DNA of 64,000 nucleotides from Streptomyces sp. WMMC500 (lineage in GTDB: Bacteria > Actinomycetota > Actinomycetes > Streptomycetales > Streptomycetaceae): positions 3,882,001 to 3,946,000 of the forward strand of contig NZ_CP114905.1 in NCBI RefSeq assembly GCF_027497195.1, read 5' to 3'. Under the pieces are notes generated by a model that saw only the letters and a program-made list of their open reading frames with translations, did not search any database and was not told the origin of the DNA. Numbering within the stretch: position 1 is the stretch's first letter; each line of letters opens with the position of its first letter. The position numbers and the translations under genes were made by a program. Below, in pieces: positions 48,326 through 64,000 of this stretch.

Positions 48326-49093
48326 CTACGAGGGCTTCCGCGCCTCGAAGAGCGTCCGCGAGCTGTGGGCGACGAACGGGCCCTCCGCCTCGATCCGTTC
48401 GTGCAGCTCGCGCAGCCGCGGCCGGTACGCCGCCACCGTGAAGCCCGGCACGATCCAGATCACCTTCAGCAGGAAGTACGCCACCGCGCCCACGTCGTGG
48501 AACTCCATCCGCAGCCGCTCCGTCCGCACCTCCACGGCCTCCAGCCCCGCCGCCTCCGCCGCCGCCCGCTCGCGCCGCGGGTCGCGGCTCCTGCGCGCCT
48601 CCTCCGGCTGCGGCCCGAGGAAGTACTCGGCCACTTCGAAGACGCTCGCGGGACCGACGTGCTGAGCGAAGTACGTGCCGCCGGGACGCAGGACGCGGGC
48701 GATCTCGGCGAAGTGGGGCCGCACCGGGTGCCGGCTGACCACGAGGTCGAACGCGCCGTCCGCGAACGGCAGCGGCGCGTCCTCCGGGGCCGCGACCACG
48801 ACGGTGCCCAGGGGGTGCAGCAGGGCCGTGGCCCTGGCGACGTTCGGCGGCCACGCCTCGGTGGCCACGGACACCGCCGGCCGCACCGGCACCCCGGCGA
48901 GCACCTCGCCGCCGCCGGTCTGGACGTCCAGCGACGCGCTCGCGACGGCCATGCGCGCACCCATGGCCCGCTGGTACCCCCAGGAGGGCCGCGCCTCGGT
49001 GGCGCGGCCCTCGAACCAGGAGAAGTCCCAGCCGTCGGTGGGCTCGGCCTCGGCCTCGGCGACCAGCGCGTCGAACGTACGGTCAGGGGTCAT
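48326..49093 (-). CDS. SAM-dependent methyltransferase-like protein
   Basis: A 255-residue Methyltransf_11-like protein. The SAM region is atypical: SLDVQTGGGEVLAG takes the place of the usual glycine-rich motif I. The downstream motifs are clear (PLPFADGAFDLVVSRHPVRPHFAEIARVLRPGGTYFAQHVG). It resembles methyltransferases of the rRNA RlmA-like or Tam group only weakly. Substrate is unknown. Confidence 0.8.
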   Translation of the reverse strand: MTPDRTFDALVAEAEAEPTDGWDFSWFEGRATEARPSWGYQRAMGARMAVASASLDVQTGGGEVLAGVPVRPAVSVATEAWPPNVARATALLHPLGTVVVAAPEDAPLPFADGAFDLVVSRHPVRPHFAEIARVLRPGGTYFAQHVGPASVFEVAEYFLGPQPEEARRSRDPRRERAAAEAAGLEAVEVRTERLRMEFHDVGAVAYFLLKVIWIVPGFTVAAYRPRLRELHERIEAEGPFVAHSSRTLFEARKPS

Positions 49094-49177: not shown

Positions 49178-51862
49178 TCAGCGGGCACGGCGCCCCGCCG
49201 CCGGCTCGGTCACCCGCAGACGGACCTCCGCCGGGCGCAGGCCGTCCGCCGTCGCCCTGAGCGTCGCCACCCCCGGTCGCTTCGCCGGGCGCAGGATCGC
49301 CAGCGCCCGGCCGTGCCACGTGTGCCGGCGCGGCCCGCGGAAGCTGTCGACGTTGTGCGGGTTGCCGTTGCCGACCGCCGCCAGTTCGCCTGCGCCGCCG
49401 GTGGCGAACTCCACCCGTACCGTCGCGTCCGGCACCACCCTGCCGCGGGCGTCGACCACCTCCGCCAGCACGTGCGCCAGGTCGTCCCGGCCCGTGGTCA
49501 GCCGCTCGACGTCCGGAGTGAGCCGCAGCGCCGCCGGCGGGCCCGTCGTCGTGAGCGTCGTCCGGCCGATCTCCCGGCCCTCCCGCCGGGCGACGGCGGT
49601 CAGCCGGCCCGGACGGTACGGGACGGTCAGCGCCACCGCGCACCGGTCCGCCGCCGTCACCGCGCGGGAGGCGACCTCCGCCCCGTTCAGCAGCAGCGTC
49701 ACGGCGTCGCCGGGGGTGTAGACCCGTACCGTCATCGGCCGGTCCCGCGCCACGTCCCAGGTCCAGCTCGCCAGCTCGTCGTAGTAGCCCCACCACAGCG
49801 CCACCTGCTCGGTGCCCGCCGGCGTGGGCCGCTCGACCAGCAGCTCCACCGGGCTGCTCCCGGTGACCGCGGCGCGCCAGGAGTGCTGCGGCTTCGGCTG
49901 CCCGATGAGGTCGAAGTCGCCGCAGTTGGCCTGGAAGTACGGGTACGGATAGCCGAAGCCGCCCCAGTTGTGGTGCAGTTCGCGCGAGATCGACCAGCCG
50001 GGCATGACGCTCTGGTCGCCGATGGTCGCCCCCGTGCCCACCGGCGGTATCGCGGTCTTGCCGATGCCCGCCTCGCCGAGGTAGTCCCAGGCGGCCCAGA
50101 TCCAGGTGCCGACGGCCCAGGTGTGCGCGGCGGCGAAGGTGACGTCCTGGTGGATGGTCGCGGGGAAGGTCTCGTTGTGCGTCAGGGCCTTGCCGGGGTG
50201 CGCGGCGTGCATCTGGGCGTAGCCCTTGCCGTTGGCGTTGTAGTGCACGTCATTGATGTCGAGGTACTGCCAGGACGGGTCGTCCGCCGAGTGCGTCGAG
50301 CCGCCGCCGAGGGTGAGCGGCCGGGTGGTGTCGAGGGCGCGCAGCGCCCGCGCCAGCTCGGCGCCGCGGCGGCCGGCGGTGTTGTCGGTGATCTCGTTGC
50401 CCAGCGACCACATGACGACGCTGGGGTGGTTGCGGTCGCGGCGGACGGTGCCGGTGAGGTCCCGCTCCCACCAGTCGGCGAAGTGCAGGGAGTAGTCGTC
50501 CGGGTTCTTGCCGGTGTCCCACACGTCGAAGAGCTCGTCCATCACCAGCATGCCGAGCCGGTCGCAGACGTCGAGCAGCTCGGGCGTGGGCGGGTTGTGG
50601 GCGGTGCGGATCGAGTTGAAGCCGGCGGCCTGGAGGATCTCCACCCGGCGCTCCTCGGAACGGGCGAGCGCGACGGCGCCCATCGGGCCGTGGTCGTGGT
50701 GGACGTTGGCGCCCGCGAACTCGACTGGCTCGCCGTTGAGGAGGAAGCCCACGTCGCCGTTCCAGGTGAGCGAGCGGATGCCGAAGCGGGTGCTGACGGT
50801 GTCGACGGCCCGGCCGCGTACGAGGACCTCGGCACGGGCGGTGTACAGGCTCGGCGAGGCGGGGGACCAGAGCGCGGGGCGGTCGAGGGGGATGTCGAGG
50901 CGGACGGCGGCGTCGTCCGGTACGTCCCGGGTGCCGGGGGCGACGTCCCGGGCGGGCGCCTGCGCCGTCGCGACCGGCCGGCCGCCCGGGTCGAACACGG
51001 TGACGCGTACCGCCGCCCGCGCGGGGTGCTCGCCGAGGTTCGCGACGGAAACGGCCACGCGCGCGAGCGACCGGCGCTCGCCCACCTCGGGCGTGGTCAC
51101 GTGCACGCCCCACAGCGGTACGCGCACGGGGCCGGTGCTGGTGAGCCAGGTGTGCCGGTAGATCCCCGAGCCCGCGTACCAGCGGCTGTTGCGGCCGGAG
51201 TTGTCGACGCGTACGGCCAGGACGTGGGGGCCCGTACGGCGCAGGTGGGGGGTGAGGTCGTACGCGAACGAGGTGTAGCCGTACGGGTGGAAGCCCAGGT
51301 GCTCGCCGTCGAGCCAGACGTCGGCGTTCTGGTAGACGCCGTCGAAGCGCAGCTCGTGGTGGCGGGCGGCGGTACCGGGAAGGGCGAAGTGCTTGCGGTA
51401 CCAGCCGACGCCGCCGACCGTGTAGCCGGTCGAGCCGTTGCCCTCGGCACTCGCGGGGTCGAACGGGCCGATCACCGGCGGCGGTACGGGCTCGGCCGGC
51501 GGCTCGCGGGGCACGAGCAGCGACGGGTCGGCGGTCGCGGCGCCGTCGGGGGCCGGGGCGTAGGGCAGATCCTCGATGCTCCAGTCGTGCGGGAGGTCGA
51601 GGGTGCGCCAGGCGCGGTCGTCGTACGCGGGGTCCTCGGCGCCGGCGGCGTCGCCGCGGTGGAAGCGCCAGCCGTCGTCGAAGGACCGGTCACGGTCGGG
51701 GTCGTGACCGGGCGCGGCGACGGATGCGGCGTCGGCCCCGGCGGCGGATGCCGTACGGGCCGACAGGTCGAGCGCCGCCACCGCGCCCGCCGCCGCGGCG
51801 CCGACGCCCAGCGCCCGGCGGCGGGTCACGCCGTCCGCTCCGGAGGATTGCTGTCCGCTCAT
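49178..51862 (-). CDS. secreted glycoside hydrolase family 2 protein (beta-galactosidase-like)
   Basis: An 894-residue GH2 enzyme with a Tat signal peptide (TRRRALG, then a hydrophobic core, ending near 40). Jelly-roll domain (about 60-250, WYRKHF and YGYTSFAYDLTPHL), Ig-like domain, TIM barrel (about 380-640) with IRTAHNPPTPELLDVCDRLGMLVMDELFDVWD. The acid/base Glu is in WSLGNEITD and a candidate nucleophile Glu is in LTHNETFPA. C-terminal beta domains (Big-like DUF4982) follow. Length fits extracellular beta-galactosidases; galactosidase versus other activity is not certain. Confidence 0.88.
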   Translation of the reverse strand: MSGQQSSGADGVTRRRALGVGAAAAGAVAALDLSARTASAAGADAASVAAPGHDPDRDRSFDDGWRFHRGDAAGAEDPAYDDRAWRTLDLPHDWSIEDLPYAPAPDGAATADPSLLVPREPPAEPVPPPVIGPFDPASAEGNGSTGYTVGGVGWYRKHFALPGTAARHHELRFDGVYQNADVWLDGEHLGFHPYGYTSFAYDLTPHLRRTGPHVLAVRVDNSGRNSRWYAGSGIYRHTWLTSTGPVRVPLWGVHVTTPEVGERRSLARVAVSVANLGEHPARAAVRVTVFDPGGRPVATAQAPARDVAPGTRDVPDDAAVRLDIPLDRPALWSPASPSLYTARAEVLVRGRAVDTVSTRFGIRSLTWNGDVGFLLNGEPVEFAGANVHHDHGPMGAVALARSEERRVEILQAAGFNSIRTAHNPPTPELLDVCDRLGMLVMDELFDVWDTGKNPDDYSLHFADWWERDLTGTVRRDRNHPSVVMWSLGNEITDNTAGRRGAELARALRALDTTRPLTLGGGSTHSADDPSWQYLDINDVHYNANGKGYAQMHAAHPGKALTHNETFPATIHQDVTFAAAHTWAVGTWIWAAWDYLGEAGIGKTAIPPVGTGATIGDQSVMPGWSISRELHHNWGGFGYPYPYFQANCGDFDLIGQPKPQHSWRAAVTGSSPVELLVERPTPAGTEQVALWWGYYDELASWTWDVARDRPMTVRVYTPGDAVTLLLNGAEVASRAVTAADRCAVALTVPYRPGRLTAVARREGREIGRTTLTTTGPPAALRLTPDVERLTTGRDDLAHVLAEVVDARGRVVPDATVRVEFATGGAGELAAVGNGNPHNVDSFRGPRRHTWHGRALAILRPAKRPGVATLRATADGLRPAEVRLRVTEPAAGRRAR

Positions 51863-52341: not shown

Positions 52342-53364
52342 GTGCACACCAATGAAATGGGCGTTTTCGGGGTCTCCCCCGCCGAGGAGCATCTTTACCG
52401 GCATTTCCTCCGGCACCCCGATTCACCCTCCGAGGGCCTCCACGTGAAGCTCGGCATCGCCTCGCACGAATTGGACCAGGCCATGACCCGGCTGATCGGG
52501 CTGCGGCTGCTCAGACCCGGGGATCGGGCGGGGAGCTTCGTCCCGGTCGATCCGGAGCAGGTCGTGGCGCGGCTCACCGAGATGCGGCTGCGCGAGATGT
52601 ACCAGGAGATCCAGACGCTCACCCAGAGCCGGCACGTCCTGACGACGCTGCGCGCGGAGACCGCGGCCCCGGCGAACGGCCGCCCGGCGGGCGCGTACGA
52701 CGGGGAGCACGGGGTGGAGGAGATAGACGAGCGCGCGGACCTGATGAACCGGGTGGAGGAGCTGGTCTTCTTCGCGCGGGAGGAGATCGCCTCCGTCGAG
52801 CCCGGCTTCCACATGATCACCGACGAGGTGGTGAACCGGCGGCGCGGGGTGGAGTGGCGGGCGCTGAAGCGCGGGGTGCGGCGGCGGCTGGTGGTGCCCG
52901 CGGACTCGCTGCGGTATCCGCGGGCCTCCGGCTACGTCCGGGAGCTGCTGGCCCGGGGCGGCGAGGTACGGGTGGTCGAGGACATATCGGACCAGCTCGT
53001 CGTGTACGACGGCCGGGTCGCCCTCATGCCCAAGGACCCGAAGAACGCCGACGAGGGCGCGCTGATGGTACGGGGGCGGGGGCTGGTCAGCACGCTGTCC
53101 GGGCTCTTCGAGAAGATCTGGGAGCAGGCGGAGGACGTCTCCGTCGAGCTGCGCGAGCCCGAGGAGCCGGCGCCGGAGCTGTCGGAGGCGGAGCTGCGGG
53201 TGCTGCGCATGATGTGCGCGGTGGGCAAGGACGAGACCGGGGCCCGGGACCTGGGGGTCTCCGTGCGTACGTACCGCAGGCACATCGCCGACGTGCTGCG
53301 GGTCCTCGGGGCCTCCACGCGGGCGCAGGCCGCGCTGCTCGCCCGCGAGCGCGGCTGGGTGTGA
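52342..53364 (+). CDS. LuxR-type / TrmB-like transcriptional regulator of the RiPP cluster
   Basis: A 340-residue regulator. The N-terminal winged-helix part (FGVSPAEEHLYRHFLRHPDSPSEGLHVKLGIASHELDQAMTRL) resembles TrmB. The middle has a phospholipase-D-like fold region (about 130-270, RRRLVVPADSLRYPRASGYVRELLARGGEVRV), and the end is a LuxR-type helix-turn-helix (LSEAELRVLRMM and RDLGVSVRTYRRHIADVLRVLGASTRAQAALLA). GTG 52342 follows AGGAGG. Such regulators often adjoin actinobacterial peptide clusters. Confidence 0.85.
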   Translation: MHTNEMGVFGVSPAEEHLYRHFLRHPDSPSEGLHVKLGIASHELDQAMTRLIGLRLLRPGDRAGSFVPVDPEQVVARLTEMRLREMYQEIQTLTQSRHVLTTLRAETAAPANGRPAGAYDGEHGVEEIDERADLMNRVEELVFFAREEIASVEPGFHMITDEVVNRRRGVEWRALKRGVRRRLVVPADSLRYPRASGYVRELLARGGEVRVVEDISDQLVVYDGRVALMPKDPKNADEGALMVRGRGLVSTLSGLFEKIWEQAEDVSVELREPEEPAPELSEAELRVLRMMCAVGKDETGARDLGVSVRTYRRHIADVLRVLGASTRAQAALLARERGWV

Positions 53365-53369
53365 CCGGG

Positions 53370-53606
53370 TCAGTTCTCCACCGACCAGCCCGTGCACGCG
53401 CTGTGCGTCAGCGCGTCTCCCGCCACCGCCGTCGCGCCGGCCTCCGGCGGCGTCAGCCGCAGCCTGATCCGCTCCGGCTCCACCCGCAGGCCGTGCGGCA
53501 GATGGGCCCGCAGCAGCCACAGCAGCCGCACCGCCGTCGTCTCGGCCGGCGGGGCGTCGAAGTCCCGGCGGACGAAGGCCACCTCGACCGACCTGCCCGG
53601 GCTCAT
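53370..53606 (-). CDS. 78-residue protein of unknown function in RiPP cluster
   Basis: The frame MSPGRSVEVAFVRRDFDAPP begins at ATG 53606, overlapping the M20 peptidase stop by 4 bp, and ends 6 bp from the end of the regulator gene. It has TTAVRLLWLLRAHLPHGLRVEPERIRLRLTPPEAG in the middle and one Cys near the end (HSACTGW). I do not recognise it. Coupled translation and its location suggest a role in making, cleaving or resisting the peptide. Confidence 0.7.
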   Translation of the reverse strand: MSPGRSVEVAFVRRDFDAPPAETTAVRLLWLLRAHLPHGLRVEPERIRLRLTPPEAGATAVAGDALTHSACTGWSVEN

Positions 53607-54940
53607 CGGGCCGCCTCGCCAGGGCCGGGACCGGGGCCAGGACTGGAATCGGCGCCGGAGCCGGGATCGGCGCCGGGATCGGCGGCGGGGCCGGTCGCGC
53701 CGCCGGCATCCGGTGGACGCGCGCCCAGCGCCCGTCTCGCCGCCGCCGTCAGCGCCTCGATGCCCGTCGGCAGCGCCGTCCGCAGGTCCGGCGCGAACCG
53801 CGGCGAGTGGTTGCCCGGCACCGGCAGCCCCGTGCGCGCCGCTTCGCGGCGGGCCGACGCGGAGACGGTGCCCAGCATCCAGTAGCCGAGCCGGGCGCCG
53901 GGGGCACCGTGCACCTCCGCGCCGGCGGGGCCGTACCAGGCGAAGTCCTCCGCCGCGGTGGCCGGTTGCCAGCGCAGCACCCGGGCGCCGCCGAACGCCG
54001 CGACGTGGGCCGCCCGCAGCTCCGCCGTCAGTCCCACGTCCGGCAGCAGCGTCCGCGCGCGGGACCGTACCGCCACCTCCGGTGCCCGCGGCGCCCCCGC
54101 CGCCTCCGCCTCGGCGGCCAGCACCCGGCGCACCCCCGCCAGCAGCCGCTCCAGCGTGCCCTCGTCGAACGCCCGCAGGCTGATGCCCAGTTCCGCGCGG
54201 TCCGGGATGACGTTCGCCTCCGTGCCCGCCGCGAGCCGGCCCACGGTCAGCACCGCCTGCTCCGCGGGCGCCCGTTCGCGGGCGACCAGCGCCTGGAGCC
54301 GCAGCACGGCCGCCGCCGCCGACACCACCGGGTCCACCGTCAGGTGCGGCGCCCCGGCGTGGCCGCCGGTGCCGTGCAGCACCGCGTCGACCGCGACCGT
54401 GCCGGCCAGCAGCGGGGCGCCGTCCGCGTGCGCGACGGTGCCGGCGGGCAGCGGCGCGGTGTGCTGGGCGAGAACGGCGTCGGGGGGTCCGGTGAGGTCG
54501 TAGAGCCCGGCGCGCAGCATCGCCAGCGCGCCCTCCAGCGTCTCCTCGGCCGGCTGCCCGACGACCGCCACCGTGCCGCGCCAGCCCGCCGTGTCGCGCG
54601 CGAGCAGCCGGGCGGCGCCGGCGAGCGCGGCGAGGTGCACGTCGTGGCCGCAGGCGTGGGCGACGCCGGGCACGGTGCTGGCGTAGCGCAGCCCGCTGTC
54701 CTCCGTCACGGGCAGCGCGTCGAGTTCGGCGCGCAGCAGCACGGTCGGGCCCGCGCCGCGGCGCAGCAGGCCGACGACGCCGTGCCCGCCGACGCCGCGG
54801 GTGACGGCGTAGCCGTCGGCGGCGAGCGCGCCGGCCAGCACGCCCGCGGTGCGCTCCTCGGCGCCGGACGGCTCGGGGTGGAGATGGACGTCGAGACAGC
54901 ACTCGACGGCGGACCGAAGGACGTCCGCGGGTACGGCCAT
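53603..54940 (-). CDS. M20-family metallopeptidase / amidohydrolase
   Basis: A 445-residue M20 zinc hydrolase like amino-acylases and carboxypeptidases. DVHLHPEPSGAEERTAG is the family start, LLRAELDALPVTEDSGL and HACGHDVHLAALAGAA hold metal ligands, GQPAEETLEGA carries the catalytic Glu pair, and the dimer domain follows. A Pro/Gly/Ala-rich, uncharged tail makes up about the last 35 residues. AGGAG precedes ATG 54940. In a RiPP cluster it could trim leader residues or resist the peptide; this is inference. Confidence 0.88.
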   Translation of the reverse strand: MAVPADVLRSAVECCLDVHLHPEPSGAEERTAGVLAGALAADGYAVTRGVGGHGVVGLLRRGAGPTVLLRAELDALPVTEDSGLRYASTVPGVAHACGHDVHLAALAGAARLLARDTAGWRGTVAVVGQPAEETLEGALAMLRAGLYDLTGPPDAVLAQHTAPLPAGTVAHADGAPLLAGTVAVDAVLHGTGGHAGAPHLTVDPVVSAAAAVLRLQALVARERAPAEQAVLTVGRLAAGTEANVIPDRAELGISLRAFDEGTLERLLAGVRRVLAAEAEAAGAPRAPEVAVRSRARTLLPDVGLTAELRAAHVAAFGGARVLRWQPATAAEDFAWYGPAGAEVHGAPGARLGYWMLGTVSASARREAARTGLPVPGNHSPRFAPDLRTALPTGIEALTAAARRALGARPPDAGGATGPAADPGADPGSGADSSPGPGPGPGEAAR

Positions 54941-55020
54941 GCGCGCCACGCTCCTCTTCCGGGCGGCTCCAGCCTGCCCGACGACGTGATCGGTACGGAC
55001 TCAGCCCCCTGTCGCCGGGT

Positions 55021-55040
55021 GTCAGCGAAGTGACAGCGAA
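55021..55040. promoter_or_regulatory. direct repeat upstream of the precursor gene
   Basis: TCAGCGAA (55022-55029) and ACAGCGAA (55033-55040) are spaced by 11 bp, one helical turn, in the divergent region between the M20 gene and the precursor gene. It could be a regulator site; evidence is only the repeat. Confidence 0.35.
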
Positions 55041-55150
55041 ACACGGGCGGGGGTGGCAGCCGACGTCGTTTCAATGGCCGTGACAAGCATCGGACCCGCC
55101 GGTCCCACGGGCGACGGGCCCGACCTCCGGACACGGAAGAAGGAGTTCCC

Positions 55151-55324
55151 ATGGCTGACAAGGCGCTCTCCACCCTCGCCGACGAGATCCTGGAGCTGGA
55201 GTCGGAGACCTTCGAGATCTCGGACTACTCGGACCAGGCCGAGGTCGTCCTCGCCGGTTCGACCTCCTGCTCCTCCACCTCGACCTGCTCCAGCACCACC
55301 AGCACCACCTCGTGCAGCGCCTGA
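55151..55324 (+). CDS. RiPP precursor peptide (thiazolylpeptide / linear azole type)
   Basis: A 57-residue precursor, after AAGAAGGAG. The acidic leader (about 1-36) contains LADEILELESETFEISDY, similar to thiopeptide leaders, and ends in EVVLAG. The core would be residues 37-57, in which 10 Ser, 7 Thr and 3 Cys (40, 46, 55) are followed by one Ala. Every core residue except the last could be cyclised to an azoline or dehydrated. The surrounding YcaO and LanB-type genes are the enzymes for exactly these reactions. The cleavage site is inferred from thiopeptide leaders. Confidence 0.9.
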   Translation: MADKALSTLADEILELESETFEISDYSDQAEVVLAGSTSCSSTSTCSSTTSTTSCSA

Positions 55325-55351
55325 CGTTCTGTCGGTGACGCCGCGCCCAAG

Positions 55352-55394
55352 GCAGCCCTCACGGGACCGGACCAGGTCCTCCCGCGAGGGCTGC
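55352..55394. terminator. terminator between precursor and YcaO genes
   Basis: GCAGCCCTC and GAGGGCTGC pair, with further pairing of CGGGA and TCCCG inside. It ends the precursor transcript and the opposing operon. Confidence 0.8.
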
Positions 55395-55418
55395 GGTGCG
55401 CGGCGGCCCCGCACCTGA

Positions 55419-57446
55419 CTACGGGAACGGGTGCGGCACCGCGCGCGGGCGGGCTCCGCCAGCCGCCCGGGCCGCCGCCAGCCGCGGCATCCGCAGCGCC
55501 CGCTGCCGGTGCCAGCCGAAGTCCAGCGGCAGCAGCCCCGGCGCCAGCGTCGCGACGGTGCGCAGGCCCAGCGCCCGCTGCTCGGGCGTCGTCTGGTCGA
55601 CGGCCACCACGTCGTGCCCGCGCGCCGCGAGCGCGTCGACGAGCAGCCGCAGGTCGTCACGGAGATCGAGCGTCGCCGGGCGCGTCCGGGCCCAGTCGGC
55701 GAAGACGCCGGCCAGGGGCTGCGCCGGGTCGCCGGTCAGGAAGTCCCCGGCGTGGGCGGCCATCCGCGGCAGCCCGTAGAGCTGGGCGTGGTCCTTCAGT
55801 TGCCGTACGAGCCCGAAGTCGTCCGCCATCGCCTCCAGTTCGGCGCGGCGCTCGGCCACCTGGTACGGCAGGTGCGGGATGTACGTGAGCACTTCGCTGA
55901 GCGCGCCGGTCAGCGCCCCCGCCGGGTCCGGGCCCGCGGCGGCGCCGAAGGACAGCAGCCCGGGGCCGCCGTCCTCCCGTACGGCCACCGCGGTGATCAC
56001 CGGGACGTCGAGGTCGCTGCGGGTGTCGAAGGCACGTACCTCGTAGCCGAGGAGCGCCGCGCGGTCCAGCATGCCGCGCACCCGCGCGTCGCCGGCCGAG
56101 CGGGGGTCGACGCGGGGGCCGGGGCCGCGTCCGTACCAGGCGAGGAGGAAGGCGTCGCGCTCGATGAGCTCCAGCAGCCCGTACAGCGCGGCCTCCGCGA
56201 GCGAGCCGCCGGTGGCGCAGCCGTTGGAGCACTCGAAGACGAAGTTGTCGGACGGCAGCCCGGCGCCGTAGTGCACCAGCCGCGCGGGGACGAGCACCGG
56301 CCGGTCGTCGCGCAGGCGGTGGCCCCAGATCCAGGGGATGGGGCGGGCCGGGTCGAACGGGTCCACCAGCGGGTCGGCGCGGTACGTCTCGGGGGCGTAC
56401 ACGCCGGTGTCCCGCGGGTCGACGACGCCGTCCTCGCCCCATGCGGCGGCGAGTTCGTCGAGCGAGGCGGTCACGGGGCGCAGGCCGCGGCGGGCGTGGG
56501 TGCCGGCGTAGCGCTCCAGGCCCTCCAGGTACGCGAGGGTGCGGCTGGTGGCGTACGCGTCGGCCTGGCCGGAGAACGTGACGTCGTTGAGGCCGGCGTA
56601 GCCGCGGACGAAGGCGCTGCCGGAGATCGGCGCGGTGGTGGTGGAGGCGGGGTTGAGGTGGGTGGTGGAGCCGAGCACGCCGCAGACGGGGTTGGTGAGC
56701 GCCGCCTCGGGAAGGTCGAGCGCGTCGAGCGGGCTGACGCGGTAGACGTCGGGGGCCGGCTTCGGGGCGGGGGCGAGGTGCATCCGGCCGTGCTCGGGGG
56801 CGTCGTCTCCGGGGGTCACGCAGGCGGGGCAGAGCGGCTCGGGGAGCAGCGGGAAGGTGGCCAGCGCCAGGGTGCCGAGGTCGACGCGGGTGACGCGGGC
56901 CTGCCCGTCGGGCGAGCGCCGGCCGGCGACCGCGCGGCACACGGCCCACACGGCGTCGGCGACGTGGTCGGTCAGCACCGGCCAGGCGGAGCCGCCCTCG
57001 GGCGCGAACCCGCCCTCCAGCGCCTCCCGTTCCGAGCGGGTACGCAGCCGCTGCCACCGCATCGCGAGGCACCGGCCGCAGGCGGGCCGCGGTGCGGGCG
57101 GTCCGCCTGCGGCCGGATGCCGTCCGGCCCCCCACGGGCCGACGAGCACCGCGCGCGAGCTGAGGTGCACGGTCGCGCCGGGGCGCTGGTCCGGCCACGG
57201 GTCGCGGCCGGGGTGCAGGACGTCGGCGGCGCCGAGGGGAACGACGAGGGGAAGCGGGGGGTTTGGAGCGCGGGTGGCGCAGAAGCCGACCGCGCCTTCC
57301 CCGTCGCCCGCGCCCGGCCCGCCCGAACCGCCGCCGGCCGCCCAGCGGCGCCGCAGCGCCTCCGCCAGCCAGGCCCGGGCCGCCTCGAACGGCGCCGGCT
57401 CCCCGTCCCGTACGGCCGGCGTCCGCGCCGCGGTCGTCGCCGTCAT
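55419..57446 (-). CDS. YcaO cyclodehydratase with fused zinc-ribbon N-terminal domain
   Basis: ATP-dependent enzyme that turns Cys, Ser and Thr into azolines. The 675-residue protein has an N-terminal part (about 1-235) with two Cys pairs, CGRC (123, 126) and CPAC (206, 209), probably one zinc site as in TOMM C-type partner proteins. The YcaO domain follows (about 240-675), with ECSNGCATGGSLAEAALYGLLELIERDA at the ATP site, and it ends PHPFP, the proline-rich tail of azoline-forming YcaO proteins. It overlaps the ABC permease gene by 4 bp. Confidence 0.92.
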   Translation of the reverse strand: MTATTAARTPAVRDGEPAPFEAARAWLAEALRRRWAAGGGSGGPGAGDGEGAVGFCATRAPNPPLPLVVPLGAADVLHPGRDPWPDQRPGATVHLSSRAVLVGPWGAGRHPAAGGPPAPRPACGRCLAMRWQRLRTRSEREALEGGFAPEGGSAWPVLTDHVADAVWAVCRAVAGRRSPDGQARVTRVDLGTLALATFPLLPEPLCPACVTPGDDAPEHGRMHLAPAPKPAPDVYRVSPLDALDLPEAALTNPVCGVLGSTTHLNPASTTTAPISGSAFVRGYAGLNDVTFSGQADAYATSRTLAYLEGLERYAGTHARRGLRPVTASLDELAAAWGEDGVVDPRDTGVYAPETYRADPLVDPFDPARPIPWIWGHRLRDDRPVLVPARLVHYGAGLPSDNFVFECSNGCATGGSLAEAALYGLLELIERDAFLLAWYGRGPGPRVDPRSAGDARVRGMLDRAALLGYEVRAFDTRSDLDVPVITAVAVREDGGPGLLSFGAAAGPDPAGALTGALSEVLTYIPHLPYQVAERRAELEAMADDFGLVRQLKDHAQLYGLPRMAAHAGDFLTGDPAQPLAGVFADWARTRPATLDLRDDLRLLVDALAARGHDVVAVDQTTPEQRALGLRTVATLAPGLLPLDFGWHRQRALRMPRLAAARAAGGARPRAVPHPFP

Positions 57447-58198
57447 GTGCGGTCGCTCCAGCGGAAGACCCGGAACGCCACGGCCCCGAACACCACCGCG
57501 AACGCCGCCAGACCGCCGCACGCCACCGCGATGTCCGCGCCGCCGCCCGCGTCGGTGAGCGCCGCCGAGACCCCGTCGTTGAGGTGCCGCAGCGGCAGCA
57601 CCCAGCTCATGGCCTGCATCCACGACGGCATGGCGTCCAGCGGGTAGAACGAGCCGGACAGGAACGCCATCGGCACCATCAGGAAGTTGGCGACCGCCGC
57701 CACCGCCTCCGGCGTACGGGCGAAGGAGCCGACGATCGCGCCCAGCGCCAGGAACGCCGTGATCCCCAGCACCAGCACCGGTATCGCCAGCGGCCATCCG
57801 CCGGCCAGCTCCAGCCCCAGCGCGGGCAGCAGCGCCACCGCCACGAACAGCACCGCCTGCACCAGCCCGATGCCCACGGCCAGCACGTACCGCGAGCCCA
57901 GCACGGCGGCCAGCGGCGTCGGCGTCATCCGGATCACCCGCAGGATGTCGTCCCGGCGCCACTGCATCAGCACGAAGCCGACGCCGAAGACGGCCGCGTT
58001 GCCCACGCCCCAGGACAGCACCCCGGGCGCGATGTACGCGATGTAGGGCCGGCCGCTCTCCTCCACGTCCTGGCCGTGGAAGATCAGCCCGAAGACGACG
58101 AGGAAGAGCAGCGGGAAGGCGAAGGTGAAGAAGAGCGTGGTCTTGTCCCGGGTGTAGGCCCGGTAGCCGGCCTCCGCCAGCGCGGAATAGGCACTCAT
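57443..58198 (-). CDS. ABC-2 type transporter permease (peptide export)
   Basis: A 251-residue membrane subunit with six predicted helices, starting with AYSALAEAGYRAYTRDKTTLFFTFAFPLLFLVVFG. MPMAFLSGSFYPLDAMPSWMQAMSWVLPLRH-like residues are typical of ABC-2 exporters. ATG 58198 with GGAG ten bases ahead is used; the longer frame starting at TTG 58264 looks too proline-rich. Its ATPase is encoded upstream. The pair is likely to export, or give immunity to, the peptide. Confidence 0.9.
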   Translation of the reverse strand: MSAYSALAEAGYRAYTRDKTTLFFTFAFPLLFLVVFGLIFHGQDVEESGRPYIAYIAPGVLSWGVGNAAVFGVGFVLMQWRRDDILRVIRMTPTPLAAVLGSRYVLAVGIGLVQAVLFVAVALLPALGLELAGGWPLAIPVLVLGITAFLALGAIVGSFARTPEAVAAVANFLMVPMAFLSGSFYPLDAMPSWMQAMSWVLPLRHLNDGVSAALTDAGGGADIAVACGGLAAFAVVFGAVAFRVFRWSDRT

Positions 58199-58267
58199 GG
58201 CATGTGGCTCCGATGGCTCCGAGGGCTTCGCAGGATGCGGGGGGCGGACGGTGGGGGCGGTCAACGG

Positions 58268-59230
<963 letters not shown>

Positions 59231-59234
59231 CGCG

Positions 59235-60344
59235 CTACGCCGCCAGCACCACGGCGCGCACCAGCAGCACCAGCACCACGGCCAGCGCCCCGACGGTCAG
59301 CACCGTCCCGGCCGCGTAGCCGAGGTAGACGGCGCGGGCGCGGCGCGGGTACGCGGCGGCGTCCGGGGAGCGGCGCAGCGCCAGGGAGAGGTACGTGCGG
59401 CTGGACTCGGCGAGCCGCAGGCCGCCGAGGAGTTGGCCGGCGATGGTGTAGCCGTCGAGCGGCGGGAGCGGCACCAGCATCGCCGCGGCCTGGAGCACGC
59501 CGAGGAACAGCAGCCCGGCGAGGCCGTCGCGGGTCGGTCCTTCGGGGGCGAGCAGCCACCAGCAGCAGAACGGCAGCAGGAACAGCAGGTTGGCCACGGC
59601 CCCGGCGCCCGCGACGACGATGCGGGCGCGGCGGCCGGCGAGGTACATGTAGTCGTCGACCGTGCAGTACATGATCACCACGGGCAGCCGCCAGCGCAGC
59701 CCGATCTCCCCCACCACACCGCCGTAGTGCCGCGCGGCGACCCCGTGCGCCAGCTCGTGCAGCGCGGTGGACAGCCACAGCGCGGTGGCGACGGCCACGA
59801 GCAGCACGGGGTTCGTGAACACGGCGGCGGCGCCGTCGACCAGTTCGCCCGGGTGCAGGGCGAGCACCAGGAGCATCGCGCCGAGCGCCGCCAGCAGCGC
59901 CGTGCCCCAGACGGGGCCGAGGAGGAACCCGGTGGCGCGGTGGAGGCGGCCGGCGGTGGCGTGGGCGTCGGCGACGAGCCGCACGCTGCCCGCGAGCGGG
60001 CCGCGCGGCGGCGGCCGTTCGGGCTCGGCCGGGCGCTCGGGGCGCGGGGTGCCGTCGAGGAGGCCGCGACCGCCGAGGAGCTGGAAGAGCCGGCTCCAGT
60101 GGGCGTCGCCGAGCCGCTTGCCGAAGGCCGCCGCGTACGCGCCGCCCAGCTCCGCGACCGTACGGGAGCCGTCCATCCGTACCATCAGGAACCGCTCGCG
60201 CGGCCCCACCTCGAAGGACTGCCCGGTGGCGGTGTCCTTGACCAGGTGCACGGTCCGCGGCCCGTGCAGCAGCGCGTCGCTGACCAGCACCTCGGGGCGC
60301 AGCCGGGGCTGGTGGGCGGCGAGCGACTCCCGGGTGCCGCTCAC
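59235..60344 (-). CDS. M50-like membrane metalloprotease with PqqD/RRE-like N-terminus
   Basis: A 369-residue membrane protein. Residues 20-105 resemble a PqqD-like winged-helix that binds leader peptides (VHLVKDTATGQSFEVGPRERFLMVRMDGSRTVAELG and a winged end). Six or so helices follow; HELAHG (about 178) is the zinc HExxH-type motif and PLPPLDGY is the second metal motif of M50 proteases. The gene overlaps the dehydratase small subunit (GTGA). A role in leader removal or membrane handling of the peptide is inferred. Confidence 0.82.
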   Translation of the reverse strand: MSGTRESLAAHQPRLRPEVLVSDALLHGPRTVHLVKDTATGQSFEVGPRERFLMVRMDGSRTVAELGGAYAAAFGKRLGDAHWSRLFQLLGGRGLLDGTPRPERPAEPERPPPRGPLAGSVRLVADAHATAGRLHRATGFLLGPVWGTALLAALGAMLLVLALHPGELVDGAAAVFTNPVLLVAVATALWLSTALHELAHGVAARHYGGVVGEIGLRWRLPVVIMYCTVDDYMYLAGRRARIVVAGAGAVANLLFLLPFCCWWLLAPEGPTRDGLAGLLFLGVLQAAAMLVPLPPLDGYTIAGQLLGGLRLAESSRTYLSLALRRSPDAAAYPRRARAVYLGYAAGTVLTVGALAVVLVLLVRAVVLAA

Positions 60345-61420
60345 CGCGCGCTCCCGGTCGCCGGCGCCGCGGCCCGCGCGTGCAGCGCCCGGGCCAGGAC
60401 GTGGGAGAGGTACGCCTCGTCCTGGATCGTCACGTGCAGCCGGTTGTTGGTCATGTGCATGTACGGGGACAGCAGCCGCTCCAGCGCCTCGTCCGGGTCG
60501 TCGACCGGCTCGTCCCGCGTGCCGTCCCAGGACCGGAAGACCAGCTCGCCCCGCTCGGCCAGCTCCACCACCCTGCCGCGCAGCTCGCGGCAGTGCTCGG
60601 CCCAGCGGCCCAGCAGCGCGGGCAGCGCGCCCTCGCCCGCCGCGGCGGCGCGGATGCGGCCGTGCCAGGTGAGCAGCCCGGGCGTCACCTCGTCCGCCTT
60701 GCGCTCGTACGCGGCGCTGCCGATGAAGCCGGTGTCGGGGAACGCGCGGTGCCAGAAGGCGTAGTAGCGGTCGAGGAAGTCCGCGAGCCGGTCGTCCTCG
60801 GGCAGGAACGCGGTGGACATGATCAGCATGAGCTGCGCCGAGGTGCCGAGCAGCACGGTGCGCAGGTGCAGGTTCTTGCCGCGCAGCGCGTCGCACACCA
60901 GCTCGCTGGAGCGGGCGAAGTGCCACTCGGCGAGCGCGACGCCGGCCGGGCCGCCGTACTTGCCGTACTCGGGCTCGTACGGCAGCCAGGCGCGTGAGTT
61001 GTTGGGCCGCAGGTTCATGCGGCCCTCGGCGTCGGTGTAGCCGGCGCGGTCCTCGGGGCGGAACTCGATGTCGAAGAGCTGGTTGTAGAACTCGTTGAGG
61101 AAGCCGGAGTCGACCTGGTAGAGCGCGGGGCGCTCGGCGAGGAAGGCGTCGACGGCGCGCTCGGCGCGGGCCCGCACCTCCGCCTCGCGCCCGGGTGCGG
61201 AGGGGCGCAGGCGGAGGCGGACGTGGGGTCCTTCGAGCCAGTAGTTGAGGAAGAACCAGCCGTCGAGGAGGCCGTCGTCGTGCAGCTCGCGGACGAGCGG
61301 GCTGACGCACTGGAGGAGGAGGGGGACGGGGTTGGCGGCGTAGTAGACGTGGAGGGCCTGCCAGTCGCCGGGGGGCGCGCCCCGGCCGGGCGCGGCGGCG
61401 GGCGCGGGCTGGTCGGTCAC
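60341..61420 (-). CDS. LanB elimination / thiopeptide-type SpaB_C domain protein
   Basis: A 359-residue stand-alone protein of the SpaB_C family. WQALHVYYAANPVPLLLQCVSPLVRELHDDGLLDGWFFLNYWLEGPHVRLRL is the family start, and LRPNNSRAWLPYEPEYGKYGGPAGVALAEWHFARSSELV is highly typical. Members either eliminate glutamate from glutamylated Ser/Thr to give dehydroamino acids, or make the pyridine ring of thiopeptides. Because only one such gene is visible, next to the glutamylation subunit, elimination is the simpler reading. Confidence 0.9.
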   Translation of the reverse strand: MTDQPAPAAAPGRGAPPGDWQALHVYYAANPVPLLLQCVSPLVRELHDDGLLDGWFFLNYWLEGPHVRLRLRPSAPGREAEVRARAERAVDAFLAERPALYQVDSGFLNEFYNQLFDIEFRPEDRAGYTDAEGRMNLRPNNSRAWLPYEPEYGKYGGPAGVALAEWHFARSSELVCDALRGKNLHLRTVLLGTSAQLMLIMSTAFLPEDDRLADFLDRYYAFWHRAFPDTGFIGSAAYERKADEVTPGLLTWHGRIRAAAAGEGALPALLGRWAEHCRELRGRVVELAERGELVFRSWDGTRDEPVDDPDEALERLLSPYMHMTNNRLHVTIQDEAYLSHVLARALHARAAAPATGSAR

Positions 61421-64000
61421 GGGGTGTCTCCTTCTGCGGTGCCGGGCGGCGCGGGGGCCGTCTCCACGGCCAGCTCCACCACGTGGCCGCCGTGTTCTGT
61501 CGTCAGGTACGGGCCGTCCTCGTCGGGCAGCGCCTCGCGGAAGGTCACGCGCGCCGCGTCGCTGCGCAGCAGGCCCTCGAAGGCCAGCAGCGACAGCGGG
61601 CTGTCGAAGTCGACGTACTGCGGCTTCGCGCCGGTCGCGCCGCGCGCCGCGTCGTCCCTGACCATGGCGTACACCCGGGCGGGCAGCCCGTGCCGGCGGC
61701 GCCAGCGGTGCCAGGCCAGCACCCACCCGGCGTCCCCGGTGCCGGCGGCGCGCGGCGGGAGCGCGGTCGCGGGGGCGCGCCAGGAGCGGCGGGCGAGGAC
61801 GAGACGGCCGTGGCGTACGCGCGGGCGGTGCGTGACGCCGTCGTCCGGCTCGCCCTCGGGGACCCCGGCCCAGACGTCGACCGGGGACATCGAGGTCGGC
61901 GAGAGCAGGAGCAGGGTGCGCGGGATCTCGGGGAGCGCCAGCGGTACGAGGTAGCCGAGGTAGACGGGCACCACCTCGCGGCCCAGCCGCGCCGAGCGCA
62001 GCACCAGCCGGTCGGTCGCGGGGTCGTGCGCCAGGCTGAGGTCGTCCAGGGCGATGCGGTACCGCTCCGGTACGGAGCTGGTCTCGCCGGGGCAGACGAT
62101 CTCGTAGTCGGTGAGGCGGCCGTGCAGGTTGAGGTTGCTCGTCACCGGGCCGCCGGTGACCTCGGCGAAGACGGCGCCGGGGGGCTGGAGTTCCCGGGCC
62201 CGGGTGCGGAGTTCCGCGGAGAGGCCGCCCGGGGTGCCGGGGGTGCCGTCGAAGCAGTGGGTGAAGCGGCTGAACGGGAAGTGCAGCCCGCCGTACGAGC
62301 GGTTGAGCACCACCAGCGGCTCGGGGCCGGCGAGCTGGACGTGGTGGCTGTGCAATGCCGGCTCGGCGGGGAGCGCGGCCAGTTCGGCGGCGACGGCGTC
62401 GAAGAGGCCGGTGCCGAGGACGAGTTCGGGGTCGCCGTGCGGGTGGTCCGCCCACCGGGCCCGTACCCCGGCGTGGAACGCGCGGCGCGCGGCGTCGAGC
62501 GCCCGGAGCTGCGGCAGGCCGAGCCAGTTCTCCTCCGGTACGTACTCCCCCGCCGCGTCGAAGGGAGTCCGGCGCGAGGTGAAGGACAGATACTGGTCGA
62601 AGAAGTCCTCGTGGAAGTCGTGGATCAGCTTCAGCAGGTCGGTGCAGCGCCCGCCGGTGCCGTAGCGGGCGAGGAAGAAGCCGCGCAGCGTCAGCCGCTG
62701 CGGCAGGGTGAGGTCGAACGCGGGCAGCACCCGCTCGACGGCGGCCAGCGGTCCCGCGAGGGCCGCCACCAGCCCGGCGGGCGTGCCGGCACCGGCCTGC
62801 CCGCCGCCGGCCGCCTGGCCGCCGCCGGGGGCCGGCCCGCCCGCGGGGGCCGTCACCTCCGGCGCCGTCGTGTCCTCGTACAGCACCGTGCGCGGCACCC
62901 GGGGCTGCGCCACGCCCAGCTCCCGCTGCACGTCCGCCAGCCGCCGCCGCAACTCGCCCAGCAGCTCGCGCCGTTCGGCGGGCGCCGCGGCGGGGTACCG
63001 GGCCAGCAGCTCCGCCGGTCCTTCCAGAGCGGCGGCCAGGTCGCCGGCCCAGGGCCGGTCGAGGGCGCGCAGCGCCCGCTGGAAGGCGCCCAGGGGGTCG
63101 GTGTCGTGGGCGCGGAGGTCGAGGCAGGGCACGCGGACCATGCCGACGTCGAGGAGGGCGGCCAGGTACGTGTCGACGGCCTCGCGGTCGGCGTCCAGAC
63201 CGTTGCCGAGCCAGTCGGCCAACTCCCCGTAGCGGACGGTCTCCCGCTTCTCCAGCAGCCCGAGCATGCGCTCCAGCACGCCGCTGCGGCGCAGGAAGAA
63301 GAGCCGGTCCTTGACGGTGTCGAAGGTGACGGCGGTGTCGTCGTCCCCGGCGGTCACCCACCGGCGCACGTAGCGCACGCGGTCCTCGTCGCGGCCCCAG
63401 CCGGGCGCGGGCGCCACGGGCAGGTCGGCGCGGCGGCGGGGGTCGGCGAGCACGGCGTCGGCGAGCCGGCCGACGGCGAGGACGTTGAGGCGGGGGTGGC
63501 TGCGGGGCGCGTACGGGCCGGTGAGGCGGAGGAGTGCCGAGGCGGTCCCGGCGTCCGCGGCCCGGTCCCCGGCGGGCTCCGCGGTGTCCGTGAAGCGGCC
63601 CAGGGCGACGGACGTGAAGGCGGCGAACGGGCTCGTCTTGCACGCCGTGCGGTAGAGGTAGGCGAGCAGCGAACGCTCCACCTTCCGCGTCCGCTTGTCC
63701 GCGCGCGCCGGGTCGGAGGCGGCGAAGGCGTCGAGCTGCGCGTCGAGGACGGGGGAGGCGAGCAGCACGCCGCCGCGCAGCCGGTCCTCGTCCAGGACGG
63801 CGCGCAGCGCCCCGCGGGTGCGCAGGAGTTCGCCGGTCAGCAGCGCCTCGCCGGCCGCCAGGTCGTCGTCCAGCCGGGCCCGCAGCTCCAGCCAGCCGCG
63901 CAGCGGCTCGGCGACCTGCGGCGCGAGCCCGGTGACGAGCGCGACGGCGGCGTCGGCGTCGGCGGGGCGCCGCCCGTTGAACACCTCCCGGCGCAGCCGC
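61417..64000 (-). CDS. LanB-type dehydratase, glutamylation subunit (5' end outside window)
   Basis: At least 860 residues of a lantibiotic dehydratase N-terminal domain, which transfers glutamate from glutamyl-tRNA to Ser and Thr of the precursor. VERSLLAYLYRTACKTSPFAAFTSVALGRF is the counterpart of the R-x-TPFG-F block, and RSYGGLHFPFSRFTHCFDGTPG and NLNLHGRLTDYEIVCPGETSS are later conserved parts. The GTG at 63984 is not the true start: the frame stays open to the edge. It overlaps the SpaB_C gene by 4 bp, the usual split-LanB layout. Confidence 0.9.
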   Translation of the reverse strand, partial: RLRREVFNGRRPADADAAVALVTGLAPQVAEPLRGWLELRARLDDDLAAGEALLTGELLRTRGALRAVLDEDRLRGGVLLASPVLDAQLDAFAASDPARADKRTRKVERSLLAYLYRTACKTSPFAAFTSVALGRFTDTAEPAGDRAADAGTASALLRLTGPYAPRSHPRLNVLAVGRLADAVLADPRRRADLPVAPAPGWGRDEDRVRYVRRWVTAGDDDTAVTFDTVKDRLFFLRRSGVLERMLGLLEKRETVRYGELADWLGNGLDADREAVDTYLAALLDVGMVRVPCLDLRAHDTDPLGAFQRALRALDRPWAGDLAAALEGPAELLARYPAAAPAERRELLGELRRRLADVQRELGVAQPRVPRTVLYEDTTAPEVTAPAGGPAPGGGQAAGGGQAGAGTPAGLVAALAGPLAAVERVLPAFDLTLPQRLTLRGFFLARYGTGGRCTDLLKLIHDFHEDFFDQYLSFTSRRTPFDAAGEYVPEENWLGLPQLRALDAARRAFHAGVRARWADHPHGDPELVLGTGLFDAVAAELAALPAEPALHSHHVQLAGPEPLVVLNRSYGGLHFPFSRFTHCFDGTPGTPGGLSAELRTRARELQPPGAVFAEVTGGPVTSNLNLHGRLTDYEIVCPGETSSVPERYRIALDDLSLAHDPATDRLVLRSARLGREVVPVYLGYLVPLALPEIPRTLLLLSPTSMSPVDVWAGVPEGEPDDGVTHRPRVRHGRLVLARRSWRAPATALPPRAAGTGDAGWVLAWHRWRRRHGLPARVYAMVRDDAARGATGAKPQYVDFDSPLSLLAFEGLLRSDAARVTFREALPDEDGPYLTTEHGGHVVELAVETAPAPPGTAEGDTP

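Follow-up and report, generated by a model that had tools for sequence, protein, structure and literature searches.

The 64,000-nucleotide stretch of Streptomyces sp. WMMC500 DNA analysed here (the window; bases 3882001-3946000 of a single-contig genome of 8.6 Mb) carries near its right end a gene cluster predicted to make a ribosomally synthesized and post-translationally modified peptide (RiPP), whose precursor has a core made almost wholly of Ser, Thr and Cys. The initial annotation, made from the sequence alone, described one RiPP system combining a YcaO protein, a split LanB dehydratase, an M50 protease fused to a RiPP recognition element (RRE), an exporter and a Cys/Ser/Thr core, and gene calls and profile searches bear this out. 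The cluster runs from the start of a LuxR-like gene at 52342 to the end of a SARP gene at 72402 (window coordinates), 8.4 kb past the right edge; the flanking stretches were fetched, and genes were called with a simple codon-based script. Protein matches place the window's relatives in Streptomyces, and S. aculeolatus is the source of the closest named relative of the M50 protein (93%) among the matches listed.

Genes of the cluster

Table 1. Genes and features of the cluster, in window coordinates, with profile scores in bits.
Feature	Position	Strand	Evidence or remark
g051, LuxR/GerE-like regulator	52342..53364	+	Weak helix-turn-helix matches, all below cut-offs (GerE 19.5 against 23.5 bits); clade-specific
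g052, 78 residues, without family	53370..53606	-	Sporadic among relatives
g053, M20 amidohydrolase/carboxypeptidase-like peptidase	53603..54940	-	TIGR01891 231.6 bits (cut-off 153.75)
210-bp gap between the divergent M20 and precursor genes	54941..55150	.	Presumed promoter region
g054, precursor, 57 residues	55151..55324	+	TIGR03892 and NF033400
g055 (YcaO1), TIGR03882 domain and SagD-family YcaO, PHPFP end	55419..57446	-	Profiles, tree, PDB matches TruD, MusD and LynD
g056, ABC-2 permease, DrrB-like	57443..58198	-	PF01061 102.6 bits; DrrB model 67.1 bits, below cut-off
g057, ABC exporter ATPase, DrrA-like	58268..59188	-	PF00005 102.2 bits; DrrA model 232 bits, below cut-off (312.45)
g058, RRE-M50 site-2-protease-like	59235..60344	-	NF041824 81.9 bits (cut-off 300); PF02163 22.6 bits (cut-off 27.2)
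g059, SpaB_C protein, assigned to glutamate elimination (predicted)	60341..61420	-	PF14028 146 bits; TIGR03891 90.9 bits (cut-off 48.45)
g060, LanB glutamylation protein (predicted)	61417..64000, to 64296 outside the window	-	PF04738 146.5 bits
g061, SagB-type dehydrogenase	64306-65928, past the edge	-	TIGR03605 110.1 bits (cut-off 78.4)
g062 (YcaO2), second TIGR03882-YcaO protein	65959-67812 as called, past the edge	-	
g063, F/ocin-ThiF-like protein, short YcaO-like tail	68327-70525, past the edge	-	TIGR03882 47.6 bits (cut-off 36.9); TIGR03693 71.6 bits (far below 561.9); TIGR03604 27.2 bits (cut-off 219.25)
SARP regulator	70531-72402, past the edge	-	BTAD 106.9 bits

The genome contains three PF02624 matches, every one of them inside the cluster. 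YcaO1 and YcaO2 are 46.5% identical over 501 residues and both end in PHPFP, a PxPxP tail of the kind tied to azoline-forming YcaOs (PMC12338566). What had been described as a "zinc-ribbon YcaO" is a TIGR03882 cyclodehydratase fusion of the usual type, present in two copies. In a 35-row tree that drew on 24 hand-picked loci, the YcaO2 proteins fall into a single supported group (99/98) and the YcaO1 proteins into a single group with weak support (71/30), and each extends across actinobacterial families, so that the duplication is old if the weakly supported YcaO1 side holds. Two cyclodehydratases have also been published for sulfomycin (PMC10634744). An in-frame GTG with AAGGAG before it lies at 68340, and a form of YcaO2 longer than the one called is likely.

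The LanB protein g060 matches the PDB entries 6ec7 ("Lantibiotic dehydratase domain protein", 126 bits) and 9jhq ("Goadsporin biosynthetic protein", 74 bits), which we take to be TbtB and GodF, respectively. The flavin dehydrogenase that the initial annotation supposed might lie beyond the right edge is indeed encoded there, as the SagB-type g061. The minus-strand genes from SARP to YcaO1 are packed, with gaps of -4 to 69 nt except for 514 nt before the called YcaO2 start, and the enzyme genes can be one operon, as had been proposed; gaps and strands set the precursor and the LuxR-like gene apart from it. The precursor gene is on the plus strand: it diverges from the M20 gene across a gap of 210 bp and converges on YcaO1 (94 bp between stops). 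Because it lies on the opposite strand, it would require a promoter of its own.

Precursor family, distribution and core

The precursor g054, which the initial annotation did not recognise, is in fact catalogued: it belongs by score to TIGR03892 ("thiazolylpeptide-type bacteriocin" in NCBIfam; 50.3 bits, cut-off 25) and to NF033400 (40.6 bits, cut-off 30), and a database search with it returned 141 proteins at E <= 0.001, with Streptomyces, Kitasatospora, Catenulispora, Actinokineospora, Micromonospora, Nonomuraea, Nocardiopsis and others among the sources of the matches listed. The predicted core, STSCSSTSTCSSTTSTTSCSA, comprises 21 residues, namely 20 Ser/Thr/Cys and a final Ala. The leader is short and contains LESETF, an instance of the Lx4F motif described as an RRE recognition motif of thiopeptides (PMC12710340), and the same pattern is present in all 65 leaders recovered from relatives. 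The TIGR03892 family is otherwise mixed, as it also holds precursors of the "..LPEMGAS.." and "SCTTTSVSTSSSS" types, many of which come from genomes with a full-length second match to a pyridine-synthase model. Around three TIGR03892-like precursors with an "LPEMGAS" leader end (L066, L067 and L076), none of the 14 cluster queries was matched within the fetched 20 kb, and these are either orphan precursors or members of distant clusters.

TIGR03892 matches occur in 83 of 392 genomes of the genus and in 28 of 394 genomes of the class. Given the mixed nature of that family, a match to g059 was preferred as marker of the cluster, and an orthologue (E <= 1e-60) is found in 47 of 295 genomes of the genus, about one in six; the window's genome is one of the 47. 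Two sets of loci were compared: the named loci, which are the best 80 of at least 125 M50 relatives found with an M50 profile, and 40 loci fetched around TIGR03892 hits, hand-picked from the hits in 83 genomes, of which 27 have the RRE-M50 protein and its neighbours (L073 being fragmentary). The M50, LanB, SpaB_C, SagB and YcaO queries were each matched in 78-80 of the 80 named loci (LanB and SpaB_C 79 each; YcaO1, YcaO2 and SagB 78 each), followed by the ABC ATPase (77), the permease (76), the F-like protein (70), M20 (66), the precursor (63), SARP (20), the LuxR-like g051 (18) and g052 (9). The two YcaO queries cross-match, and at least two YcaO places are present in 67 of the 80. SARP is under-counted in this set, since its gene lies close to the end of the 10-kb flank or past it; among the 27 cluster loci around TIGR03892 hits, 24 gave a match. 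Eleven genera besides Streptomyces also have the cluster: Sphaerimonospora, Catellatospora, Kitasatospora, Actinacidiphila, Streptantibioticus, Streptacidiphilus, Micromonospora, Actinokineospora, Actinoplanes, Nocardioides and Humibacillus. Precursor and M50 lie on opposite strands in 62 of the 63 named loci that yielded a precursor (the exception is L192) and in 21 of the 27 others, while six have both on the same strand (L053, L064, L068 and L073-L075).

The core is nearly constant across these loci. Precursors were sought with a finder that required a leader motif, one or more Cys and, among the final 20 residues, no fewer than 15 Cys/Ser/Thr. It is therefore biased to such tails, and it yielded 65 precursors from 63 of the 80 named loci. 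Compared with the last 21 residues of the window's precursor, 23 are identical at all 21 positions, 30 at 20, seven at 19 and five at 13-16, that is, 19-21 positions match in 60 of 65. The enzymes of the named loci, on the other hand, have diverged considerably, their median identity to the window protein being 49% for the F-like protein, 53% for M50, 56% for LanB, 57% for YcaO1 and M20, 60% for SagB, 62% for YcaO2, 64% for SpaB_C, and 67% and 70% for the ABC proteins (counting only loci where the best piece covers more than half of the query, 66-80 loci).

Codons were tabulated for the main class of 58 of 66 sequences (the 65 and the window's own), defined by a core of 20 Ser/Thr/Cys and Ala after LAG or LGS, a construction that makes variation outside Ser/Thr/Cys invisible. 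In this class the core varies at positions 1, 2, 4 and 20 only. Eight positions are always Ser, and both the TCN and the AGY codon families are seen at each of them (n=58), although at one position the split is AGY 57 to TCN 1. In a wider set (the 120 precursor hits listed of the 141, of which four are without recognisable tail), Cys occurs at position 14 as well. In L053, L073, L074 and L075 the precursor stands at the SARP end and not beside M20, and the core Cys residues are shifted to positions 1, 14 and 19, compared with 4, 10 and 19. Two loci (L136 and L172) carry two precursor genes per cluster with differing cores, which are natural material showing which core positions may vary.

A near-constant peptide core across many actinobacteria suggests a conserved job for the product. 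Several observations caution against reading too much into this. Seventeen of the 80 named loci gave no precursor, some cut by contig ends and others whole, and precursors at the SARP end may escape the flank; the loci were chosen by M50 similarity and the finder favours Cys/Ser/Thr-rich tails; the leader is conserved as well; and a crude pN/pS comparison gave 0.167/0.266 in the core and 0.090/0.258 in the leader, and is thus not lower in the core. We think that switches between the Ser codon families inflate these counts. The same chemistry would be compatible with an ordinary goadsporin-like antibiotic, its core being conserved through horizontal spread or as part of a slow-evolving short gene, and we regard this as a serious possibility that nonetheless falls short of an even chance. 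Goadsporin shares the enzyme logic (PMC5303826), the exporter is DrrAB-like, the whole precursor including its leader is well conserved, and the pN/pS values point the same way; the near-fixed core beside enzymes of the same loci at 49-70% median identity, and the use of both Ser codon families at all eight always-Ser positions, argue for the conserved job instead.

The probable elimination protein and the pyridine synthase question

Thiopeptides require a pyridine synthase. When PF14028 and the pyridine-synthase model NF045556 were searched in 19 genomes, no separate pyridine synthase was found in the window's genome, where g059 is both the sole PF14028 protein and the sole NF045556 match; its 78.8 bits over model positions 1-276 fall short of the cut-off of 325 for a [4+2] protein. 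Nearly full-length NF045556 matches (96.6-113.7 bits), not listed by PF14028, are present in nine of the 19 genomes (G114, G329, G066, G015, G307, G142, G173, G165 and G333), in a genome region that also contains a PF14028 elimination-type protein, and we take these as pyridine synthases. Partial second matches occur in two further genomes (G021 and G327, contig C10).

Several lines of evidence separate g059 from the full-length proteins. The NF045556 matches of g059-type proteins reach no further than model position 277. These proteins also have PF14028 and an HxxxNR motif, both absent from the eight full-length rows. In a SpaB_C tree of 38 of the 40 loci L078-L117 (two duplicates omitted; the group names are ours), those eight rows cluster together (100/100), with a branch 2.27 changes per column long, and g059 lies outside their group. 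HxxxNR-like motifs occur in 7/7 g059-type, 11/11 thiopeptide elimination and 4/8 fused LanB rows, and in 0/8 pyridine-synthase and 0/4 other rows. An alignment of g059 with 15 elimination domains, all 16 rows selected for having HxxxNR, has 18 invariant columns, and its profile matches NisB at PHIRLR and IIHVHNNR, the residues of PHxRxR, YxxExxxYGG and HxxxNR being common to g059 and NisB. Arg784, Arg786 and His961 of NisB presumably matter for elimination. By these sequence features g059 looks like an elimination enzyme.

This assignment has to be weighed against the fact that the curated NF045556 cut-off of 325 was reached in none of the 19 genomes, and that the scores of g059-type proteins (78.8-102.6 bits) overlap those of the full-length set, so that the separation rests on coverage, PF14028, tree and motif. 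Moreover, g059 has as its neighbours in the tree two elimination proteins from berninamycin-like clusters (94/87, under a long-branch warning). A true macrocyclic thiopeptide, its ring closed by a too-divergent pyridine synthase or by g059 itself, would agree with both observations, with the name of the precursor family, and with the thiopeptide-type enzyme set of YcaO, F protein (below the TIGR03693 cut-off), dehydrogenase and split LanB next to an Lx4F leader. We consider it improbable, because the single SpaB_C protein, if it closed the ring, would leave the glutamate without an eliminating enzyme, which disfavours ring closure by g059, and because the only protein without family in the window's cluster is the sporadic 78-residue g052 (further conserved open reading frames in relatives were not looked for). 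A thiopeptide was therefore set aside for want of a separate pyridine synthase in the genome, and the lack of a recognisable one contradicts the "thiazolylpeptide-type" label that databases give to the precursor.

Proposed pathway and relation to known systems

A structure model and its fold matches indicate that the protease g058 joins a PqqD-like RRE fold to a site-2 protease core, whose HExxH and LDG metal-site residues are invariant in a 52-row alignment, and it is presumed to be the leader peptidase. A sequence search of the PDB gave no match for it, and its score misses the curated cut-off of the daptide RRE-peptidase model NF041824 (Table 1). The combination of YcaO with an RRE-M50 protein had not been recognised as that of a described product. 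RRE-M50 fusions are known for daptides (PMC10036551); their pairing with YcaO and a split LanB was not found described in the open-licence PubMed Central (PMC) literature, subscription journals being outside the search. M50 is further fused with the exporter ATPase as a single open reading frame in 12 of 77 named loci (L164, L169, L177, L179, L182, L184-L188, L191 and L192), and an RRE-protease-exporter frame of this kind is also seen in L052, L064, L068 and L072. The M20 peptidase g053 is a possible trimming enzyme.

Taken together, the cluster probably makes a non-macrocyclic, linear peptide with both azoles and dehydroamino acids, following the logic of goadsporin. In the proposed pathway, a putative RRE in the F protein g063 would bind the Lx4F motif of the leader and present the core to YcaO1 and YcaO2, which would turn Cys, and probably some Ser/Thr, into azolines, to be oxidised to azoles by the SagB-type dehydrogenase. 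LanB would then glutamylate remaining Ser/Thr, probably those directly preceding azoles, and g059 would remove the glutamate to give dehydroalanine (Dha) or dehydrobutyrine (Dhb). The membrane-embedded g058 may bind the leader and cut it around ..VLAG|STSC.., close to the DrrAB-like exporter or coupled with it, and the M20 peptidase may trim one end. Regulation would involve SARP and, in some clades, the LuxR-like protein. Glutamylation in goadsporin appears to require azoles already formed (PMC5303826), and dehydration in carnazolamide is described as restricted to Ser preceding an azole (PMC10676384); by this analogy Dha/Dhb would be expected first at Ser3, Thr9 and Ser18, the residues directly before Cys4, Cys10 and Cys19, as a prediction only. 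The calculated mass of the unmodified 21-residue core is 1975.73 Da; with an expected loss of 20.03 per azole and 18.01 per dehydration, three thiazoles and three Dha/Dhb would bring it to 1861.62.

Goadsporin is the nearest published logic, with YcaO, dehydrogenase and split LanB (GodF/GodG) and without a [4+2] protein (PMC5303826, PMC4603692), a combination also found here. Its cyclodehydratase, however, is a single fused protein, its ABC exporter (GodB) bears a peptidase, and it has an acetyltransferase (GodH), whereas the present cluster has two YcaOs, an F-like protein, RRE-M50, a DrrAB-like exporter and M20; no Pfam domain of the GodB peptidase-exporter or GodH acetyltransferase kind was detected in a scan of 16 proteins (two flanking ones and 14 from the cluster). 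Coryneazolisin types 1 and 2 (Cox et al. 2015) resemble the cluster in two D proteins, LanB-like dehydratases, absence of a [4+2] protein and a nearly invariant precursor with a mostly Cys/Ser/Thr core (PMC4603692). They are set apart, by description, by one discrete D protein, the other being fused to C, and by a core with Ile, whereas both YcaOs here are paralogues carrying TIGR03882; the parts of PMC4603692 covered do not mention M50 for them. Two berninamycin-like clusters (L094 and L098), whose precursors presumably resemble that of berninamycin, have the elimination proteins nearest g059, but each also has a second match to the pyridine-synthase model, a partial one under the cut-off (69.4 and 66.7 bits; G021 and G327 contig C10), that has no counterpart here. 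Sulfomycin shares two cyclodehydratases with RRE, ThiF-like and dehydrogenase partners (PMC10634744). In the daptide proteases MpaP/DapP, too, an N-terminal RRE is fused to an intramembrane site-2 protease, which takes off the leader (PMC10036551). None of these closest kinds (goadsporin, coryneazolisin, berninamycin/sulfomycin and the daptide RRE-peptidase) agrees with the cluster in every defining point.

Other classes were set aside as well. The enzymes that define daptides, that is, the decarboxylase (of the iron alcohol dehydrogenase type), aminotransferase and methyltransferase set, are absent from the 14 scanned cluster proteins, the methyltransferase g049 lying outside the cluster. Dehydrazoles of the carnazolamide type are defined by a DUF4135/LanM-type dehydratase and an NHLP leader (PMC10676384), whereas here the dehydratase is LanB and the leader short. 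A class I lanthipeptide-like system with YcaO in a minor part could account for the split LanB with its separate elimination protein, but no LanC is among the scanned cluster proteins, and two YcaOs are found across loci together with an F-like protein and a dehydrogenase, which makes it very improbable. YcaOs that are associated with daptides and bear a thiopeptide-associated annotation are noted in a daptide preprint (PMC12338566), and these may be the present family met in passing by others.

Outside the cluster, the methyltransferase gene g049 (48326-49093, minus strand; PF08241 39.1 bits) matches the Erm(32) 23S rRNA G748 methyltransferase model very weakly (17.2 bits, cut-off 550), and a GH2 beta-galactosidase-like gene (49178-51829) stands between it and the cluster. 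On the other side, beyond the window, a putative kinase/DnaK-like gene group (72853-79316) separates the cluster from a 1520-residue gene (79666-84228) with RHS/YD-type repeats recognised by eye and a small gene downstream.

Among the papers listed from the open-licence PMC literature, subscription papers being outside the search, we found no product, structure or function for the cluster, no match to a core fragment as text string, and, by title and abstract, no characterisation under the family name. The wide distribution of the cluster, its near-fixed core and the fusion of M50 with the exporter ATPase are new here. More speculatively, and in our view rather unlikely as a whole, the product could be one conserved azole/dehydro peptide derived entirely from Ser/Thr/Cys, shared by actinobacteria as a signal, a morphogen or a metal ligand and not a diversifying antibiotic. 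Its maturation would take place at the membrane, through an RRE-guided site-2 protease that is physically coupled to the exporter, and the machinery would come from a thiopeptide-like ancestor that was without pyridine formation or had lost it. The nearly fixed core within diverged machinery means that one compound is testable across many strains. Additionally, the route from RRE through site-2 protease to exporter, if true, would be a new way of linking leader removal to export in azole peptides.

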